A stretch of 51,180 nt of DNA from Chloroflexota bacterium. GTDB taxonomy: Bacteria > Chloroflexota > Dehalococcoidia > Bin125. The notes beneath the pieces were generated by a model that was not told where the DNA came from, searched no databases, and saw only the letters and a program-made list of their open reading frames with translations. Shown here in pieces: positions 4,563 through 19,183 of this stretch. The stretch is taken from positions 1 through 51,180 of the forward strand of contig VXQT01000004.1 of assembly GCA_009838915.1 (NCBI GenBank). The letters run 5' to 3'. The first letter of the stretch is position 1; each line of letters opens with the position of its first letter. Made by a program: the position numbers and the translations under genes.

Positions 4563-6018
4563 TCCCTCAAGCCTCTCCAGCCACCGTGCTCGACGTTTTT
4601 TTCCCACCGAGCGCCAGAACGAGTTGCTCAAGGCAATCGCCGCAGGCCCTAGACCTGGGCTGATCCTGCTCGGCTACGGTGGCGCCATGGGCGGCGGCAA
4701 GACCCGCGCCATCGTCGAACTCGCCATCGACGCCGCCTTGGCCTTCCCCGGCAACAACATCCTCGTCGCCCGCCAGCACTTCACCGACCTCTCCTCCACC
4801 ACCATGAAGGAGTTCTTCGACGTCTGCCCCGACCGATACATCCGCCGTCGGGTCTCAGCCCCCACCAATCTCGTCGAAGTCGCCAAGCCCGGCGCGCCAG
4901 ACGACGAGATATCAACCATCAACTTCCGCCATCTCACCGAGTGGACCGGCCTCGGTTCCCAGCAATACGGCGCAGTCCTCATTGACGAAGCCGGCGAGGT
5001 TGCCGAGGAGGCCGCGTTGATGCTGCTTACCCGGCTGCGTCACCCGGCTCAGCCGCAGCGATGGTTCGTCGCCGCCTCCAATCCCTGGCCGGGCTGGTTC
5101 GAGCGATGGTTCGCCCGACGCGAGCTCGACGAGGAGGCGTTCGCTGCAGCCAACGGACGGATCGTGTACATCCCCGCCAGGATTCCCGACAACCCGCACC
5201 TACCCGACAACTACGCGGCACAACAGCGGGCGCTGCAGCCGGGCGAGTGGGTCGATCGGTTCATCGAAGGTCGCTTCGACGCGTTCGACGGTCAGATCTA
5301 CCAGCACTTCGACCCGCTGCGGCATTGCTGGGATGCGCCGCTGCCGCACTTCACCCGCTACATCGGCGGGCTCGACTTCGGCGGACAGTCGCCCCGCGAC
5401 CACTACACGGCAGGCGTCGTCGCCGGCATCACCTCCGGTCTCCCTTCTCCCCCCGCGCCCGTGGGAGCAAATGGCGGCTTAGCCTCCTTCCCTTCTCCCC
5501 CCGCGTCAGCGGGGGGAGATGCCGAAGGCAGAGGGGGGGCTCCGGCAAACATCCTGATCCGCCTGGGCGAGTTCGAAGACCGCGGGCCCGGCGTCACCGA
5601 GCGTCTCGAACAGTGGCAGCGCGATTGGCGAGCCAAGCTCGGACCGATCCACTGGTGCGCCGATCGTTCCCAGTCCGCCTGGATCGATCACCAGCGGCGT
5701 CAGGGCAACCGAGTCGTGCCCAGCAAGGGTGGACCCGACTCGGTGAGCTGGGGTATCTCGCTGGTGCAGCAGCGCCTCAACGGCGATCCGCCCAGCTCCT
5801 ACTACACGCCAGGCATGAGGCAGTTCGCCACGCGAATTCGCGAGTACCAGTGGGACCGCTCAGCACCCGACCACGCGCCCAGGCCGCTCAAGCGCAACGA
5901 CGATCTGCTCGACGCCGACCGCTACATGCACGAACTGGTCGTGCAGCGCCGTTCCTCCCCGGGCATGGTGCAGATCGAGCTGCCGCCCCCCGGCCGAGTC
6001 GCCAGGTGGCCGGAGTGA
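4546..6018 (+). CDS. Phage terminase large subunit (DNA-packaging ATPase/nuclease) with an in-frame repeat insertion
   Basis: 490 aa. Walker A GAMGGGKT is at residues 46-53, Walker B VLIDEAGE near 144-151, and the coupling-type motif AASNPWPGWF follows. The RNase H-like nuclease domain shows GGLDFGG (Asp277), WCADRS and DDLLDAD (Asp456/458). These indicate a headful or site-specific packaging motor that translocates and cuts phage DNA. Start chosen at 4546: GAGCGGAG lies upstream and the start overlaps the preceding gene. Residues about 299-332 are encoded by one degenerate and one full copy of the genomic palindromic repeat (SPPAP, SPPAS, EGRGG). They fall between two nuclease-domain strands, VVAGI and NILIRLGEF. 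The frame stays open, but whether the enzyme still works is unknown. No portal gene follows. Confidence 0.85.
   Translation: MTTRSNPSSLSSHRARRFFPTERQNELLKAIAAGPRPGLILLGYGGAMGGGKTRAIVELAIDAALAFPGNNILVARQHFTDLSSTTMKEFFDVCPDRYIRRRVSAPTNLVEVAKPGAPDDEISTINFRHLTEWTGLGSQQYGAVLIDEAGEVAEEAALMLLTRLRHPAQPQRWFVAASNPWPGWFERWFARRELDEEAFAAANGRIVYIPARIPDNPHLPDNYAAQQRALQPGEWVDRFIEGRFDAFDGQIYQHFDPLRHCWDAPLPHFTRYIGGLDFGGQSPRDHYTAGVVAGITSGLPSPPAPVGANGGLASFPSPPASAGGDAEGRGGAPANILIRLGEFEDRGPGVTERLEQWQRDWRAKLGPIHWCADRSQSAWIDHQRRQGNRVVPSKGGPDSVSWGISLVQQRLNGDPPSSYYTPGMRQFATRIREYQWDRSAPDHAPRPLKRNDDLLDADRYMHELVVQRRSSPGMVQIELPPPGRVARWPE
5441..5543 (+). repeat. Palindromic repeat, 1.5 copies in frame inside terL
   Basis: A degenerate first hairpin (5447-5466) is followed by a complete copy (about 5488-5542) with the GTCA loop, second hairpin TGCC-GAA-GGCA and terminal G-run. 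It adds roughly 34 codons with no stop or frameshift. Confidence 0.85.
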
Positions 6019-8661: not shown

Positions 8662-11094
8662 TCAGCCAAGCGTGCCGGCGGCGGCGAGACGGCCCATGTC
8701 GTCGTCGCTGTAGCCGAGCAGCCCCTGGAGGATGTCCTCGGTGTGCTCTCCCCAGAGCGGGGCACGGACCGCCGGCAGCCGCTCGCCGTCCCAGAGAATC
8801 GGCTCCCTGATGATCTGGAAGGTGCAGCCCTCCGGCGAGTCAGCAGGGTGGTACGCGTCGCGCATGGCGGGATCTTGCCCTGCGAAGAAGTCCTCCAGCC
8901 GCTCAACCGGGCTGGCAGGGACGCCGGCATTGATCAAGAGACGGTACGAGGTCCACTCATCCTGCGAACGCGTCCACTCGGAGACTGCGGCTTCCAGCTC
9001 ATCTTCACTCGCCTGACGACCTGCGACAGTATCCAGATCGGTTCTTGACGCGAGATCCGCGCGACCGATCACGCGGCACAGGTTGCGCCAATCGGCGTCG
9101 TCGCGGCAGGCGATTGCGACCCAGCGATCGTCGCCGGCGGCGGGAAACACGCCGTGCGGCGACATGAACGGAGAGCGGTTGCCCATGCGCGGACGTTCGG
9201 CGACGCCGTTCAGCGTCTCAATCAGCTCGGTGTCCAGCAACTGCACGGCAGTCTCGTACTGGGCGATCTCGAGGTAGCGTCCGCTGCCGCTGCGTTCGCG
9301 ATCGTCCAGGGCGGCCATCACCGACGCGGCGAGATAGTAAGGCACGGTGAAGTCGGAGTGCAGCGTGCCGAGGCCGATCGGCGCGCGGCCTGGGAATCCC
9401 GAGCGATGCGACAGCCCGCACATGGCGATGATCCCGTTGCCGTAGGAGCGCCACTCGGCCCGCGGTCCCTCGATGCCCATCACGGCCACGTTGCAGACGA
9501 TGATGTCGTCCTTGACCTTGCGCAGATCGTCATAGCCGATGCCCCAGCGGTCGAGTCGGTACGGGGTGTAGTTGGAAGTGACGACATCGGCGTGCTCGGC
9601 TAACCGGCGCACGGCTTCGATGCCTTCCTCCGTCTTGAGATTGAGCGTGACCGACCTCTTGCCGCCGGCGCAGTCGTTGAACGTGCCGTTGGTGTTGATC
9701 GAGAAGCGGTCGGGCGGCTGGACGCCGCGGTAGCGGATCGGGTCGATGCGCGATTCGGACTCGATCTTGATCACCTCCGCGCCGAGGTCGGCGAGCAACC
9801 GGGTGCCGAGCGAGCCGGCGATGGCCCAGGTGAAGTCGAGCACGCGAACGCCGTCCAGCGGACGGCGTGGCGGTGGTGGAGCGGAGTTGTACAGCGTCGA
9901 GACGGACGGCGTCCGCCTCTGTCGCTCCGCGAGATCTCCCCCCGCGGAGCGGGGGGAGAGGGGAACGGTGGCATCGAAGAGCTCGTCGTTGTGTTCGCCG
10001 AGGAGTGGGGCGCGGGCGGCGCGGGGTTGCTCGCCTCTCGTGCGGACGGCGGGTCGCGGCAGCGTCAGCGTCGCGCCGAGCTGGGGGTGCTCCACCTCCT
10101 GGAAGTAGTCGCGGGACCAGAGATGCGGATCCCTGGCCACTTCCTCAACGGTGTTGATGGGAAGCACCAGCAGCCCAAGCTCTTGCCCGCGATCGTGCAG
10201 TTCCGTCACGGAGAGGGCGCCGCAGAGCCGCTCGATCCAGGGGCGAATCTCGTCGTAGTGCGCCTCGCGGTACAGCTCGTCGTCCCACTGCGGCTCGCGC
10301 AGCTCGGGAGCGCCCAGCACCTCGTCGACCCAGTTGACGAAGCGCGGCCAATGCGGCGGATGGATCGTGAACGAGACCCAGTGGCTGTCGCCGGCCTGAA
10401 ACGTGGCGCCCGAGCCAATCGGTATGTGGCGGTCGGGCGACATGCCGTGCCAGGTCCAGAAGTTCCCGCTGGCGGTCTGCAGGGTGGTAAACGCGACCGC
10501 CTCCTGTAGCGAGACCGTGATCCGTCCGCAGCCGCCGCCTCGGCGACGCTGGACAATCAGCGCCATGGCGGCTTCGGCCATGGCCAGCGATCCCTGCTTG
10601 TGCGAGAGATTGCCGCCCGGCCAGACCGGCGGATCTTCGGGGTGACCGTTGAGCACGATGTGGCCGCCCGCCGCCATGGCGGTCAGATCGGTCATCGGCT
10701 CCTCCGCGCCTCGGCGGAACACGGCATCGACCAGCGGAATCCTGGACTGCCATGCGCCCTGCCGTCCGCGCGCCAGCCACTCGGCCAGCGGACCGCTCGC
10801 TTCGAGCGGCGCCAACACGACGTCGAAACGGGGCAGCAGCGACTCCATCTCTTGCCAGGTCGCCGGCTCGTCGAAGTCGACGGCAACGGAGCGCTTGCCC
10901 GCGTTGTAGAGCAGATGCGCCCAACCGCGCTCGACGCGGGGCGCGTCCGACTCGACCGCCGGCTCCCGCATTCGCAACCCGTCACCGCGTTGGTCTTCGA
11001 CGCGAATCACCTGCGCGCCCAGGTCGGCCAACAGCCGCGCGCCCAGCGCCAGCGGTTCGTCGGTCAGGTCCAGGATGCGCGTGTCGTTGAGCAT
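8662..11094 (-). CDS. Double-length CaiB/BaiF CoA-transferase (two domains fused through a palindromic repeat)
   Basis: 810 aa, twice the normal size. Domain 1 (about 1-375) starts ILDLTDEPLALGARLLADLGAQVIRVED and ends LLGEHNDELFDA. Domain 2 (about 405-810) starts LDGVRVLDFTWAIAG and ends LWGEHTEDIL. The catalytic Asp is present only in domain 2 (Asp581, HSDFTVPYY). The same site in domain 1 reads LSHKQGS, without Asp, so that half is probably structural. Class III enzymes form interlocked dimers, so a fused pseudodimer with one active site is plausible. The linker (about 378-394) is encoded by a palindromic repeat exactly where domain 1 would normally stop. The repeat may have fused two genes or been inserted in an existing linker. 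Confidence 0.85.
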   Translation of the reverse strand: MLNDTRILDLTDEPLALGARLLADLGAQVIRVEDQRGDGLRMREPAVESDAPRVERGWAHLLYNAGKRSVAVDFDEPATWQEMESLLPRFDVVLAPLEASGPLAEWLARGRQGAWQSRIPLVDAVFRRGAEEPMTDLTAMAAGGHIVLNGHPEDPPVWPGGNLSHKQGSLAMAEAAMALIVQRRRGGGCGRITVSLQEAVAFTTLQTASGNFWTWHGMSPDRHIPIGSGATFQAGDSHWVSFTIHPPHWPRFVNWVDEVLGAPELREPQWDDELYREAHYDEIRPWIERLCGALSVTELHDRGQELGLLVLPINTVEEVARDPHLWSRDYFQEVEHPQLGATLTLPRPAVRTRGEQPRAARAPLLGEHNDELFDATVPLSPRSAGGDLAERQRRTPSVSTLYNSAPPPPRRPLDGVRVLDFTWAIAGSLGTRLLADLGAEVIKIESESRIDPIRYRGVQPPDRFSINTNGTFNDCAGGKRSVTLNLKTEEGIEAVRRLAEHADVVTSNYTPYRLDRWGIGYDDLRKVKDDIIVCNVAVMGIEGPRAEWRSYGNGIIAMCGLSHRSGFPGRAPIGLGTLHSDFTVPYYLAASVMAALDDRERSGSGRYLEIAQYETAVQLLDTELIETLNGVAERPRMGNRSPFMSPHGVFPAAGDDRWVAIACRDDADWRNLCRVIGRADLASRTDLDTVAGRQASEDELEAAVSEWTRSQDEWTSYRLLINAGVPASPVERLEDFFAGQDPAMRDAYHPADSPEGCTFQIIREPILWDGERLPAVRAPLWGEHTEDILQGLLGYSDDDMGRLAAAGTLG
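9916..9963 (-). repeat. Palindromic repeat at the domain junction of the fused CoA-transferase
   Basis: Copy in the sense orientation of the minus-strand gene: hairpin 1 (CCCCCCGC-TCC-GCGGGGGG) followed by hairpin 2 of the TCGC/GCGA type with one mismatch. It is read in a different frame (LSPRSAGG) from the copies in terL and the hot-dog genes. Confidence 0.85.
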
Positions 11095-11802: not shown

Positions 11803-12684
11803 ATGGCAGACACACTCTCTTCCAACATCTCCGCGTCCTACGCGGCGATGGTCGAGCGCACGATTGCGCAGATGCCGCAGTCGGCGCCGATGCTCTCGCT
11901 GGCGCGCAAGTTGATCGTGCCCAAGGGCTCGGGCAGCGCGCAGATTCCGCGCGTGTCGAGCGTCTCGACCGTGCAGACGCCGGCCGAGAACGCCGAACTC
12001 TCGACCACCTCGCGCTTCACCCTGGCCAGCACCACGATCTCGCCCACCTTCCGCGCGATCTACGTGCGCATTCACGTGCGGGCGATCAACTACTCGCAGG
12101 AAGACCTGGTGCGCCTGGTCTCCGACGAGATGGCGCTGTCGCAGGGCCAGGACATCGACACCGACCTGACCGGCGAGTTCGCCAACTGGCACACCGACAA
12201 CGACATCGGCGCGACCGGGAAGAAGCTGACCCTGGCGAAGCTGCGCGAGGCGCGGCGCGTGCTGCAGTCGGTCAAGCGAGCCAAGGGCGGCCCGCCGCGC
12301 GGCGACATCGTCACGGTGCTCTCGCCGGTCGTCGCCGAGCACGTGCTCGAAGACCTCGGCGCGTCCGGCGTGAGCGGCAACTCGGGCTGGATTCCGGCCG
12401 GCATCTCCGAGCGGATGATTCGGCGCTTCCACGTCTCGGAGATCCCGCTGATGGGCACGGCCGTGTTCGTCGACGGCTACATGGCCGCCGACGGCGCCGG
12501 CGACTACATCTGCTCGATGTTCGGTACCGAGGCCTTGGTCTGGGCCTGCTCGATGGATTGGGAGATGTCCGTGTTCGAGGAGGCGGAATGGCCGGGCGTC
12601 ACGCTCCGCTCGATGGCCGACTACGACACGGGGATCGCCGGGTTCGCCCATCACGGCTGCCAGATCACCGCGGACGGAGGCTAG
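11803..12684 (+). CDS. Putative phage major capsid protein
   Basis: 293 aa. A polar N-terminal region is followed by alternating beta and helical segments without signal peptide or membrane helix. The pattern SARKLIVPKGSGSAQIPRV, long helices near RLVSDEMALSQGQDID and KLREARRVLQSVK, VLSPVVAEHVLEDL and the closing EWPGVTLRSMADYDTGIAGFAHHG resembles tailed-phage capsid proteins of the HK97 type. Its place after a scaffold-like gene and before head and lysis genes supports this. GGAAC lies before the ATG. Residue-level identification is not certain, and an encapsulin-like shell is less likely because a lysis cassette follows. Confidence 0.6.
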   Translation: MADTLSSNISASYAAMVERTIAQMPQSAPMLSLARKLIVPKGSGSAQIPRVSSVSTVQTPAENAELSTTSRFTLASTTISPTFRAIYVRIHVRAINYSQEDLVRLVSDEMALSQGQDIDTDLTGEFANWHTDNDIGATGKKLTLAKLREARRVLQSVKRAKGGPPRGDIVTVLSPVVAEHVLEDLGASGVSGNSGWIPAGISERMIRRFHVSEIPLMGTAVFVDGYMAADGAGDYICSMFGTEALVWACSMDWEMSVFEEAEWPGVTLRSMADYDTGIAGFAHHGCQITADGG

Positions 12685-13717: not shown

Positions 13718-13993
13718 ATGAGTGGACAGAATCAACCCTTGGCCGGCTCAGATTCGCAGGAGCCGGAGCGGGCCGCGACGCCGGACCCGCTCTGGATGCC
13801 GCGAGGCAGCGTTCGTGCCCTGATCGCGATCGGCGTGGTCGCTGTTTGGGCGTCGCTCGAGACCGGGCTGGTCGGCGTCCCGCCCTCCGACGCTGTGCGC
13901 TCAATCGCGGTCGCCGTGGCCGCCGGCTACGGCGTGCTGCGCAGCCGCGACCAACGCAGCGACCGGTCAGACCGGACGGGAGGACGCGAATGA
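13718..13993 (+). CDS. Two-TM holin-like protein
   Basis: 91 aa. Polar N-terminus, then hydrophobic segments at about 32-52 (ALIAIGVVAVWASLETGLVGV) and 60-73 (SIAVAVAAGYGVL), and a charged Arg/Asp/Ser tail. A GAGAGG site precedes the ATG. Its last four bases overlap the endolysin start (ATGA), the usual arrangement for a holin and its lysin. The tight coupling to an amidase supports a role in releasing the lysin across the membrane. Confidence 0.6.
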   Translation: MSGQNQPLAGSDSQEPERAATPDPLWMPRGSVRALIAIGVVAVWASLETGLVGVPPSDAVRSIAVAVAAGYGVLRSRDQRSDRSDRTGGRE

Positions 13994-14697
13994 CCACCGC
14001 GAAGCTCGATCCGCCGCCCGACCTGGTCGGGATCCGCGGACTGCCGTACGGCGCTCGCCTCATCTGGCGGCCGGCGCATCCGTCCAACTTCTACGCGGCC
14101 TCATCACGGCCGTATTCAGGTGCCGAGAGGCGCTTCGTCGCGATCTGCTACCACACTCCCGAGGAGCCATGGGACGACAACGAGGTCACCCCGGCATGGT
14201 TCGAAGATCCGCGCGCCAACGCCAGTACCAACTACTACGCCGACTCAGATGGTGACCTCTACCAGATGGTCCGCGACCGGGACTTCGCCTGGGCCCAGGG
14301 CGTCCGCCGCAACGACCTGGTCCTGCCTCGTCCCGCCTGGTGGCGCGATGAGTACGTCAGCTACAACGCCTGCATGCTGTCGATTGAGATCGAGGGCTAC
14401 GCGCGAGAAATCGGCGAGACCTTCGTTCCGGGTAGCCGCCAGCTCGAGACGGTCGCCGCCTGGTCGGCGTACGTCTGTAAGAAGTACGGCATTCCCATCG
14501 ACCGCCGCTACCACGTTGGCCATAGCGAGCTGACGCGACAGAAGTCGGACCCGGGCCGCGACTTCCCCTGGAAGGCGCTGCTGAATCGGGTGAGGGAACT
14601 GTCGTCGGGTGACCGCGAAGCTCGCCTGGCCCAGCTCGAACGCCGCGTCGCAGCGCTGGAATCGCACACGCATGGCGGACCAGTCGGCATCGAGTGA
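13990..14697 (+). CDS. N-acetylmuramoyl-L-alanine amidase (Amidase_2/PGRP type), probable endolysin
   Basis: 235 aa without a signal peptide. The amidase fold shows the zinc ligands His in ICYHTPE (residue about 55), His in HVGHSEL (about 177) and Asp in KSDPGRDFPW (about 188). YYADSDGDLYQMV and SIEIEGYA are also typical of the family. It cleaves the bond between muramic acid and the stem peptide. A C-terminal coiled coil (about 207-226, REARLAQLERRVAALES) may oligomerise it. The start overlaps the holin-like gene by four bases. As it lacks a signal it would need the holin for export. Confidence 0.85.
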   Translation: MTTAKLDPPPDLVGIRGLPYGARLIWRPAHPSNFYAASSRPYSGAERRFVAICYHTPEEPWDDNEVTPAWFEDPRANASTNYYADSDGDLYQMVRDRDFAWAQGVRRNDLVLPRPAWWRDEYVSYNACMLSIEIEGYAREIGETFVPGSRQLETVAAWSAYVCKKYGIPIDRRYHVGHSELTRQKSDPGRDFPWKALLNRVRELSSGDREARLAQLERRVAALESHTHGGPVGIE

Positions 14698-16263: not shown

Positions 16264-17127
16264 CTAGCCTCCGCCGACCTGGTAAATCGTGCGGTGCCGC
16301 AGGCGGGCGATGTCCTCGCCCGACTCGTCGCTAATCGTCACGTCCAGCAAGCAGTACTCGTGCTCCTTGCGCCGGTAGCCGTCGGTCACGTGGCCAGAGA
16401 CGACCAACGTCTGTCCGGCACGGGCCGGCGCGAGCATCTGGATCTGGCTGCCGGCGTGGATGCCCGCCGGGTAGTGGTAGGTGTGCTTGGTCAGTCGCAC
16501 GCAGCGTCCGGCGATCCAGCCGGGATGCAGCCTCGCGCCCTCGCCGCGCCAGCGCGTGTGCGGATCGCGGGCGAAATGGTCGGCGTAGACTTCGGCGTCT
16601 TCGGTAGACATCGGCACAGCCATCGCCGGCAGGTCCTCGCCGATCGGTAGGTTTTGAGGAGTGAGCAGCGTGGGCGGATCAGCCGCGGGTACGGGGTCGC
16701 GATTTCGAGCCACCGCAAGATCTCCGTAGAACTCCGCCTCGCCCATTCCGGCGGCGCCGGCGATGCAGACCTCGCCGGAATCCTTAGCCATGGTGAACTC
16801 GACAGTCGGGAGCCCCCCTCTGTCCCTACGGGACATCTCCCCCCGCGGAGCGGGGGGAGAGCTGACCACACGAGTTGTGATCTCGTCTCCCGGATAGACC
16901 GGGCGGCGGAGGCGGAAGTCGATCCAACCGGAGTCGAGCCACTCTTGGCCGAGGGCTTCGATCAGCGCGGGCACGGCCCACGAGTACACCGTCACGCCGC
17001 CGACCAGCGCGCCGCTGAAGCCAAACTTCGCCGCGCCTTCGGTCGAGTGGATGATGTTGTCGTTCTCGATCGAATCTTCGCCGTCGAGGAAGGCGGTGAT
17101 CGAGCGCTCAATGGTCTGCGCGGTCAT
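16264..17127 (-). CDS. Double hot-dog (MaoC-like/FAS1-like dehydratase) protein with an in-frame repeat insertion
   Basis: 287 aa. Residues about 20-155 and 170-287 form two hot-dog halves, seen in IIHSTEGAAKFGFSGALVGGVTVYSW and in HPGWIAGRC, IHAGSQIQMLAPARAGQTLVVSG. Proteins of this type hydrate or dehydrate acyl-CoAs. Residues about 89-106 (SSPPAPRGEMSRRDRGG) are encoded by a palindromic repeat, placed between strands ITTRVV and VEFTMAKDSGEV. The protein is otherwise colinear with its downstream-transcribed neighbour's paralogue at 17139-17999. It is the last gene of the minus-strand run that begins with hicB and includes a CoA-transferase. The conserved neighbourhood suggests it acts on the acyl-CoA made by that transferase. 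Confidence 0.75.
   Translation of the reverse strand: MTAQTIERSITAFLDGEDSIENDNIIHSTEGAAKFGFSGALVGGVTVYSWAVPALIEALGQEWLDSGWIDFRLRRPVYPGDEITTRVVSSPPAPRGEMSRRDRGGLPTVEFTMAKDSGEVCIAGAAGMGEAEFYGDLAVARNRDPVPAADPPTLLTPQNLPIGEDLPAMAVPMSTEDAEVYADHFARDPHTRWRGEGARLHPGWIAGRCVRLTKHTYHYPAGIHAGSQIQMLAPARAGQTLVVSGHVTDGYRRKEHEYCLLDVTISDESGEDIARLRHRTIYQVGGG
16811..16861 (-). repeat. Palindromic repeat in frame inside a hot-dog gene
   Basis: Sense orientation in the minus-strand gene. Hairpin 1 (CCCCCCGC-TCC-GCGGGGGG) and hairpin 2 TGTCCC-GTA-GGGACA are both complete. It adds about 17 codons. Confidence 0.9.
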
Positions 17128-17138
17128 GGAGTTGCTCC

Positions 17139-17999
17139 TCAGCGTGCGGCCACCTGGTAGATCGTCGGTTGGCGCATGCGAACCAGGTCTCGGCCGTCCT
17201 CCGACGTGATAGTGAGATCGATCACGGCATACTCGTGGCCCTTGCGCTCGTATCCAGAGGCCAGTCGTCCGCTGACCAGTAATCGCTGGTCGGGGTGCAC
17301 CGGCGCGAGATGCTGAATCTGGCTCGATGCGTGGATCGCGGTGTAGCGCCAGGTGTGCGCGAGCAGGGCGTTGGCTCGTTGGGCGATCCAGCCTGGATGG
17401 ACTCGACCTCCAGCGCCGCGCCAGCGTGGGTCGGAGTCGCTCGCTTTCTCATCGGCATATGTTTCGGCATCGACATGACTGAGATCAATCGCCATCGCCG
17501 GAAGGTCTTCACCCAGGGGCGCCAGGGCTCGAGTGATGAATGGTCGCTCTTCCGGCTGGGGGACCGGCGTGCGATCGGCGGCCGACGTGATTTCCGAGCT
17601 GAAGTCGGCGGTGCCGAGTCCGGCGGTACCCCGGACCGCGACCTCGCCGTTGTCCTTGGTCATGGTGAACACGATCGCCGGCGGCCCCCCTCTGTCCCTA
17701 CGGGACATCTCCCCCCGCTTCGCGGGGGGAGAGGAGATCGCCCGGGTGGTGATCACTTCGCTGGGATAGACGGGCTTGCGCAACTGGAACTCGACTCAGC
17801 CCTCGTCCAGCCAGGCGTCGCCCAGAGCCTCGACCAGGGCCGCCGCCGACCATGAGTAGACCGTCGTGCCGCCGACCAATGGACCGCTGTACCCGAAGCG
17901 AGCGGCGCCGGCCGTCGAGTGGATGATGTTGTTGATCTCGAGCGAGTCGTCGCCGTCGAGAAAGGCGGTGATCGAGCGTTCGACGATTGCCGTAGTCAT
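17139..17999 (-). pseudogene. Hot-dog (MaoC-like) dehydratase paralogue interrupted by TGA at codon 68
   Basis: Paralogue of the gene at 16264-17127: the N-termini (ERSITAFLDG, NIIHSTAGAARFGYSG) and C-termini (QIQHLAPVHPDQRLLVSG) align throughout. Translation from the ATG at 17999 meets TGA at 17798-17796, and the same frame continues VEFQLRKPVYPSEV. In the intact paralogue codon 68 is Trp, so TGG has become TGA. The rest (about 214 codons) is open and conserved, so the lesion is recent or a sequencing error. It carries a palindromic repeat at the same site as its paralogue. The start overlaps the CoA-transferase stop (TGATG). Confidence 0.7.
17683..17734 (-). repeat. Palindromic repeat in frame inside the hot-dog pseudogene
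   Basis: Complete copy, hairpin 1 with loop GAA and hairpin 2 TGTCCC-GTA-GGGACA, at the position homologous to the copy at 16811-16861 and read in the same frame (SSPPAKRGEMSRRDRGG). This suggests insertion before the two genes duplicated. Confidence 0.9.
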
Positions 18000-19183
18000 C
18001 AGATCACTCCATCCGCCGCGAGTTGTTCCAGCTCGTCGTCCGATACGCCGAGCAGTCCGCCGTAGATCTCGCGGTTGTGCTCTCCCAGCGTCGGCGCTCG
18101 GTGCTTCACAGATCCTGGCGTTTTGGTGAGGCGCGGTACGATGCCCGGTTGCGGCGTGGCGCCGTGCTGCTCCGAAGGCACGTCGACGATCTGATCGCGC
18201 GCGTCGTAGTGTTCGTCGCTCATGATGTCGGCGGTCGTGTAGACCTTGGTCGCCGGAACGCCGTGCTTGTCCAACAGGTGCTGCACCTGCTCCAGCGTCA
18301 GTGAGCCGACCCAATCGCCGACGATCTCGTGAATCGCCTCGTAGTTCTTGCGCCGCACGACGTGGACCTCGAAGCGAGGATCGCTGAGCAGATCAGGACG
18401 CTGCATCGCCGCGACCAGTCGCTCGAACGTGCCTTGCGTGGTGGCGTTGATGATCAGGTGGTGGCCGTCGGATGTGGCCCACTGCTCCGCCGGCACGACG
18501 CCGGGCCAGTAGTTGCCGCTGCGCTCGCGATTCCGGCCGCTGTGCGCGAACTGCGACGCGTGCGTGCCGGACTGCTTCCAGATCGCCTCGTACAGCGCAA
18601 CGTCGACGTCCTGGCCGAGCCCGCCGTTGACGTCGCGCGCGCGCAGCGCCATCAGCGTGCCCATCGCGGCGAAAACGCCGGCCGAGTAGTCGGCGACCAT
18701 GTAGCCGGGACGCACGGGCGGGCCGTCGGCCCAGCCGGTCTGATAGGTCATCCCGGCGAAGCCCAGCGCGACACGGTCGAAGCCGGCCCGCTCGCGATAG
18801 GGACCGGTCTGTCCATAGCCCGAGACCCGGGTCACGACCAGGCCAGGGTTGAGTTCGCGCAAGGAGTCAGGCGCCAGGTCCATCTTCTCCAGCGTGCCGG
18901 GACGGAAGTTCTCGATCAGCACGTCGGCCTGCAGGCACAGGCGTCGGAACAGGTCCTTGCCTCGCGGATCGGCGAGATTGCAGGTCACCCCCCGCTGCGA
19001 GCGGTTCTCCTGCACATAGGAGATGGTGCCGTGATTTGGTTCGCCCGTGCCGGGTCGTTCGACCTTGATCACGTCAGCCCCAAACTCGGCGAGCATGGTG
19101 GCGCAGTGAGGCGCAGCGAGAATCTGCCCGGCATTGATCACGGTGACGCCGTCGAGCGGCGGTCGGAGTTCGTTGGTAGTCAT
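17999..19183 (-). CDS. CaiB/BaiF family (class III) CoA-transferase
   Basis: 394 aa. Begins PPLDGVTVINAGQILAAP and MLAEFGADVIKVERP; the catalytic Asp is Asp165 (MVADYSAGVFAAMG); ends APTLGEHNREIYGGLLG. All are typical of active family members that attach CoA to carboxylic acids using another acyl-CoA. The ATG at 19183 (MTTNELRPP) fits family alignments; an upstream ATG at 19243 would extend into hicA. It starts 19 bases after hicA and overlaps the downstream hot-dog gene by one base, so toxin, transferase and hydratases are probably on one transcript. Confidence 0.88.
   Translation of the reverse strand: MTTNELRPPLDGVTVINAGQILAAPHCATMLAEFGADVIKVERPGTGEPNHGTISYVQENRSQRGVTCNLADPRGKDLFRRLCLQADVLIENFRPGTLEKMDLAPDSLRELNPGLVVTRVSGYGQTGPYRERAGFDRVALGFAGMTYQTGWADGPPVRPGYMVADYSAGVFAAMGTLMALRARDVNGGLGQDVDVALYEAIWKQSGTHASQFAHSGRNRERSGNYWPGVVPAEQWATSDGHHLIINATTQGTFERLVAAMQRPDLLSDPRFEVHVVRRKNYEAIHEIVGDWVGSLTLEQVQHLLDKHGVPATKVYTTADIMSDEHYDARDQIVDVPSEQHGATPQPGIVPRLTKTPGSVKHRAPTLGEHNREIYGGLLGVSDDELEQLAADGVI

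Follow-up and report, generated by a model that had tools for sequence, protein, structure and literature searches.

The 51,180-nt stretch analysed here (the window) carries one open frame of 810 amino acids at positions 8662–11094 of its minus strand in the ORF listing, which is identified as a fused double class III CoA-transferase gene from the frame itself, two PF02515 domains, the orthologues in the genus and an AlphaFold model. A profile search gives two CoA_transf_3 (PF02515) matches in the protein (E = 1e-137), the two stretches scoring 459.5 bits against a curated cut-off of 23.3. Domain 1 (residues 1–373; 9976–11094, minus strand) ends in ...APLLGEHNDELFDATVP and has histidine at the position of the catalytic aspartate (His165; codon 10600–10602, minus strand), while domain 2 (residues 410–810; 8665–9867, minus strand) keeps the catalytic residue (Asp581; codon 9352–9354, minus strand), so the class III catalytic aspartate is present in domain 2 only. 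Between them lies an interdomain linker (residues 374–409; 9868–9975, minus strand), where a repeat is translated as LSPRSAGGDLAERQR, with the start of domain 2 (RPLDGVRVLDF) about 18 residues past it. The AlphaFold model (18 orthologues; pLDDT 84.9, pTM 0.89) is confident for both domains, while linker residues 376–408 are without structure (pLDDT < 50) and are predicted to be disordered. An earlier note on this DNA had placed a repeat at the junction of a fused double CoA-transferase whose first domain lacks the catalytic aspartate, and both statements are borne out.

The nearest named relatives of the protein belong to Dehalococcoidia and Chloroflexi MAGs, while the top match among solved structures, by sequence as well as by fold, is the heterodimeric succinyl-CoA:(R)-benzylsuccinate CoA-transferase BbsEF (PDB 9fn0 and 9fol), which also has one subunit with the aspartate and one without. 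Chain A (9fn0_A) is closest to domain 1 (E = 3e-26) and chain B (9fn0_B) to domain 2 (E = 8e-61). BbsEF consists of two separate chains, whereas the window protein is a single chain with an element-bearing linker. The window protein would thus be a covalently joined BbsEF-like pair, with an inactive first half lacking the aspartate and an active second half, and to judge from homology and the confident model the two halves probably form one enzyme together; the earlier reading as an obligate pseudodimer is supported, since the closest matches come from both subunits of a heterodimer. DddD is a fused double CaiB-type CoA-transferase with two class III domains in one chain, and no solved DddD structure is among the structure matches of the window protein.

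The repeat in the linker is a type A copy of a palindromic element, which lies in frame at 9914–9960 (47 nt, minus strand; an improvement on the limits 9916–9963 given earlier) and encodes residues 379–394. It contains hairpin 1 (TCTCCCCCCGC GGA GCGGGGGGAGA; 9935–9959) and hairpin 2 (TGTCGC TCC GCGAGA; 9920–9934), and is slightly decayed: a single pair of hairpin 2 is broken, and the GCCCCCCTCT end is eroded. The element is about 48 bp in size and GC-rich, with two hairpins; its core consists of the hairpin CTCCCCCCGC-N3-GCGGGGGGAG, followed by the hairpin TGTCNC-GNA-GNGACA (short form TGCC-GAA-GGCA) and GAGGGGGG, and its ends read CCCCCCTCT...GGGGGGAGAG. Many copies of the family occur within the window, and an exact search with the type A core pattern finds 185 copies in the 2.87-Mb genome of the uncultured Dehalococcoidia bacterium to which the window belongs (G000), where the same pattern read backwards gives none and shuffled sequence gives none. 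Type A counts in the 15 genus genomes range from 0 (G007) to 185, and those of a related type B element (GGGGGAGGTG...CGGAGGGG) vary independently of them. Among the dispersed copies, hairpin 2 shows compensatory change (22 cells with both sides changed versus 5.1 in shuffles), one of its positions displaying all four Watson-Crick pairs, and the copy list often contains inverted pairs about 60 bp apart.

A census of stretches totalling 266 kb of G000, with genes called by a home-made codon-usage gene caller, places 45 of 48 copies in intergenic sequence, which makes up 9% of the total; the other three lie inside called genes, namely the window gene, a terminase-like gene and a MaoC-like gene. 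The element is a dispersed, non-autonomous, mostly intergenic repeat. An Rfam search with the element returned no match, by which a known RNA family was rejected as its identity, and a REP driven by RAYT was likewise rejected, as the Y1 transposase (PF01797, RAYT) was not found in 14 of the 15 genus genomes including G000, while control genomes gave matches. No cognate transposase was identified for the element, neither excision nor new transposition was observed, and comparison by eye of the orthologous linker and fused-group sites revealed no clear target-site duplication. The element is presumably mobile, to judge from its dispersal and from its presence or absence at orthologous sites.

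Palindromes lying in frame in genes are best known from Rickettsia, and the present case is from a lineage of Chloroflexota (Dehalococcoidia) with a large CoA-transferase expansion. As reviewed in the literature, Rickettsia palindromic elements (RPEs) lie in frame in conserved metabolic genes and add residues at tolerated places, are about 100–150 bp long, and are found inside genes in nearly half of the reported cases (PMC10969869, PMC2229807). The Dehalococcoidia element resembles RPEs, as far as descriptions go, in being inserted in frame in conserved genes, but is shorter (~48 bp), GC-rich, two-hairpin and overwhelmingly intergenic. It shares with the REP/BIME sequences of enterobacteria short palindromes, an extragenic location, a high copy number and frequent inverted pairs, whereas REP/BIMEs are associated with RAYT, the transposase not found in 14 of 15 genomes of this genus. 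In the sections consulted, Coxiella QMITEs and enterobacterial MITEs are small non-autonomous elements able to extend or enter open frames; they are larger (about 100–400 bp) than the Dehalococcoidia element and are not described there at junctions of fused enzyme subunits (PMC5896051, PMC2229807). By analogy, the window-gene palindrome appears to be of much the same kind as MITEs and the palindromes found in frame in Rickettsia, from which its family differs in being shorter, GC-rich, mostly located between genes and concentrated in fused CoA-transferase linkers.

All well-covered orthologues of the window gene are fused, in the genus (79–89% identity), in other genera (about 50–66%; G017 66%, G018 and G019 about 50%) and likewise in Dehalococcoidia that are less closely related. 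The linkers of G000, G009, G010 and G014 contain type A and those of G002, G005 and G011 type B; G001 and G004 have a decayed type B, and G013 has an unrelated palindrome, type C (CCCTCTCCCTGAGGGAGAGGG). No palindrome is present in the linkers of G006 and G007 within the genus, in the outgroups (G017–G019 of the same family, the Dehalococcoidia MAG L058, and L020), or in the further-off fused relatives from G022 and Acidimicrobiia, so that element-type palindromes in these linkers are confined to the genus. The G012 gene L018 is a paralogue and was not counted as an orthologue, and L084 was left out as mis-assigned in domain 1. In the tree, the fused genes of Dehalococcoidia form one clade in both halves, which reaches far beyond the element-bearing genus, while separate gene pairs are found at greater distance, in either order. 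On this phylogenetic evidence the fusion of the two units predates the genus by far. The earlier note had proposed that a stop-free repeat inserted across a stop codon joined the two genes; for the window gene this is refuted, because element-free fused relatives branch outside the element-bearing genus, which is the very pattern it had named as contrary to its idea. The comparison of relatives that it called for did recover separate neighbouring genes and fused genes with and without the repeat, the last of which speak against a repeat-driven origin of this gene.

G000 encodes about 75 class III CoA-transferase domains in 2.87 Mb, an extreme expansion, among them 13 fused genes and 14 separate neighbouring pairs; enrichment of CaiB/BaiF has been reported for SAR202 sponge symbionts (PMC6306507). 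In all 13 fused genes the inactive half comes first and the active half second, and in 12 of the 13 aligned separate pairs exactly one partner has the aspartate, so that the BbsEF-type arrangement of one inactive and one active subunit, adjacent or fused, is found in 13/13 fused and 12/13 split cases. Since split pairs show it too, the asymmetry is a trait of the two-subunit enzyme type that is older than fusion, and the earlier proposal that domain 1 decayed after fusion is rejected. Within CoA-transferase genes the element is seen in interdomain linkers: it is present in 5 of the 13 fused linkers of G000 versus 0 of 14 split-pair gaps (p = 0.016; kinship between genes and genomes ignored) and versus 2 of 259 other coding sequences (p = 2e-6; kinship ignored), which it avoids, while in G001 it is present in 6 of 18 fused linkers versus 0 of 15 split-pair gaps (p = 0.021; kinship ignored). 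Another fused CoA-transferase, L302 (G001 C2:112751–113284), also has an in-frame element and retains the native C-terminal tail of domain 1 before it.

Four other fused groups (L145, L146, L148 and L152) were compared in up to 14 relatives, and in all of them, as in the window, terminase and MaoC-like genes, palindromes lie in frame in conserved coding sequence. Genes of the L146, L148 and L152 groups are fused with or without the element, each group including element-free fused members; the length of every intact linker is divisible by 3, and one and the same linker has received palindromes of several families. Fusion thus preceded the element in four of the five groups compared. Two seeming exceptions were discarded: in G011 the L152 orthologue looks split through an assembly artefact (an N run and homopolymers), and in G002 the L146 gene lies on two contigs because contigs end at the junction. 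With the same enzyme pairs occurring as separate genes, as plain fusions and as fusions that bear palindromes of several kinds, this lineage offers a natural experiment that shows where coding sequence tolerates a selfish insert.

The L145 group (G000 C28:68279–70780) is the one in which the suggestion that repeats could drive gene fusion retains some possibility. Its genes are split and element-free in five genomes (G006, G007 and G012 of the genus, and the outgroups G017 and G019), where a TGATG stop/start overlap is conserved and the spacer is 2 modulo 3, while in ten genomes they are fused, a palindromic element sits precisely at the junction and the spacer length is divisible by 3 (Fisher p = 3e-4, relatedness uncorrected). 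The overlap in the split pairs (L257, L258, L260, L275 and L272) comes after a GW.D motif, suggesting that the split subunits may be translationally coupled. The outgroups make the split state ancestral, a rooting that rests on long outgroup branches, and an AU test did not reject a monophyletic fused set (p = 0.059); G018 was omitted from the final tree for the odd 77% identity of one half. The left flank of the insertion is identical in G000, G001 and G014 and near-identical in G010, which points to an insertion shared among these four. However, the split lineage within the genus is element-poor, with type A counts of 0, 3 and 8, while most fused linkers of the element-rich lineage contain palindromes, also where the fusion was earlier. 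The contrast is thus partly confounded, element load alone accounting for part but not all of it; G012 is not wholly element-free, as its L152 linker has an apparent degenerate element. Essentially, the L145 pattern is one evolutionary contrast.

The window-gene palindrome is best explained as a later in-frame passenger in the tolerant linker of an already fused enzyme and not as the cause of the fusion (probability roughly 0.8). The two genes fused long before the genus arose, and the element would have entered the disordered linker later, in frame and without stop codons, the linker being one of the few coding places where some 16 extra residues could be harmless; an insertion of this size was presumably neutral. 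In sister species this linker has taken up type B or the unrelated type C palindromes instead. Some of the evidence is less favourable to the passenger reading: enrichment in fused linkers over split gaps is also expected if elements cause fusions, fusion and element appear together in L145, and the mobility of the element is read from dispersal and orthologous presence or absence, with no excision, transposition or target-site duplication seen. If the element instead drives fusion, it would insert where the stop and start codons of coupled CoA-transferase genes overlap and remove the stop, yielding one frame. The ancestral split state of L145 and its clean division between five element-free split and ten element-bearing fused genomes agree with this, and it could hold there, whereas the window, L146, L148 and L152 groups all have members fused without an element. 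Even in L145 the proposal is doubtful, as a single phylogenetic contrast with an element-poor split lineage carries it, palindromes are common in the linkers of the element-rich lineage anyway, and the flank homology at the breakpoints between split and fused junctions is too weak to order the steps. Insertion just at such a site is also tolerated without fusion: the S162 control pair is split in 14 of 14 genomes, yet in two of them, G000 (L162, C28:112700–115800) and G011 (L290), a different palindrome (CGTCATCCCCGCG..CGCGGGGACG) follows the second gene's start codon immediately and in frame, just past the stop/start overlap. That palindromes act as gene-joining devices, turning the two-chain L145 enzyme into a single chain by insertion across the overlap, with fused linkers then remaining landing sites for several palindrome families, is accordingly a tentative proposal, and L145 is the one group where more genomes could test element-driven fusion directly.

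Two further explanations concern the linker itself. Fused linkers might be former intergenic spacers that already held elements and brought them along into coding sequence as some other process fused the genes; elements are intergenic elsewhere and the linkers occupy the position of the gap between separate genes, but split-pair spacers never hold an element in G000 or G001, split pairs often have overlapping stop and start codons that leave no room for one, and outgroup fused linkers are without it, which makes this origin very improbable. It is also improbable, though somewhat less so, that the encoded peptide is a selected functional linker or that the hairpin is regulatory in the mRNA. The compensatory changes that keep hairpin 2 among dispersed copies and the recurrence of palindromes at the same site in many species would fit such a role, but palindrome sequence and even family differ between species, two species have none, the segment is predicted to be disordered, and hairpin 2 is broken in the window-gene copy itself.

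In the neighbourhood, the CoA-transferase cluster is flanked by genes for a terminase large subunit (4624–6015), a conserved, possibly capsid-like protein (11803–12684) and an amidase/endolysin (13990–14697). As several other genus members also have the 11803–12684 gene next to these CoA-transferases, this flank may be a domesticated phage block or a GTA-like cluster. The terminase-like gene contains two in-frame palindromes (GLPSPPAPVGANGGLASFPSPPASAGGDAEGRGGAP) at window positions 5444–5546. Farther along, two tandem MaoC-like (double hot-dog) paralogues (16267–17127 and 17142–18000, minus strand) both contain the palindrome in frame between their two halves, at corresponding positions, and the second paralogue has an in-frame TGA upstream of it.
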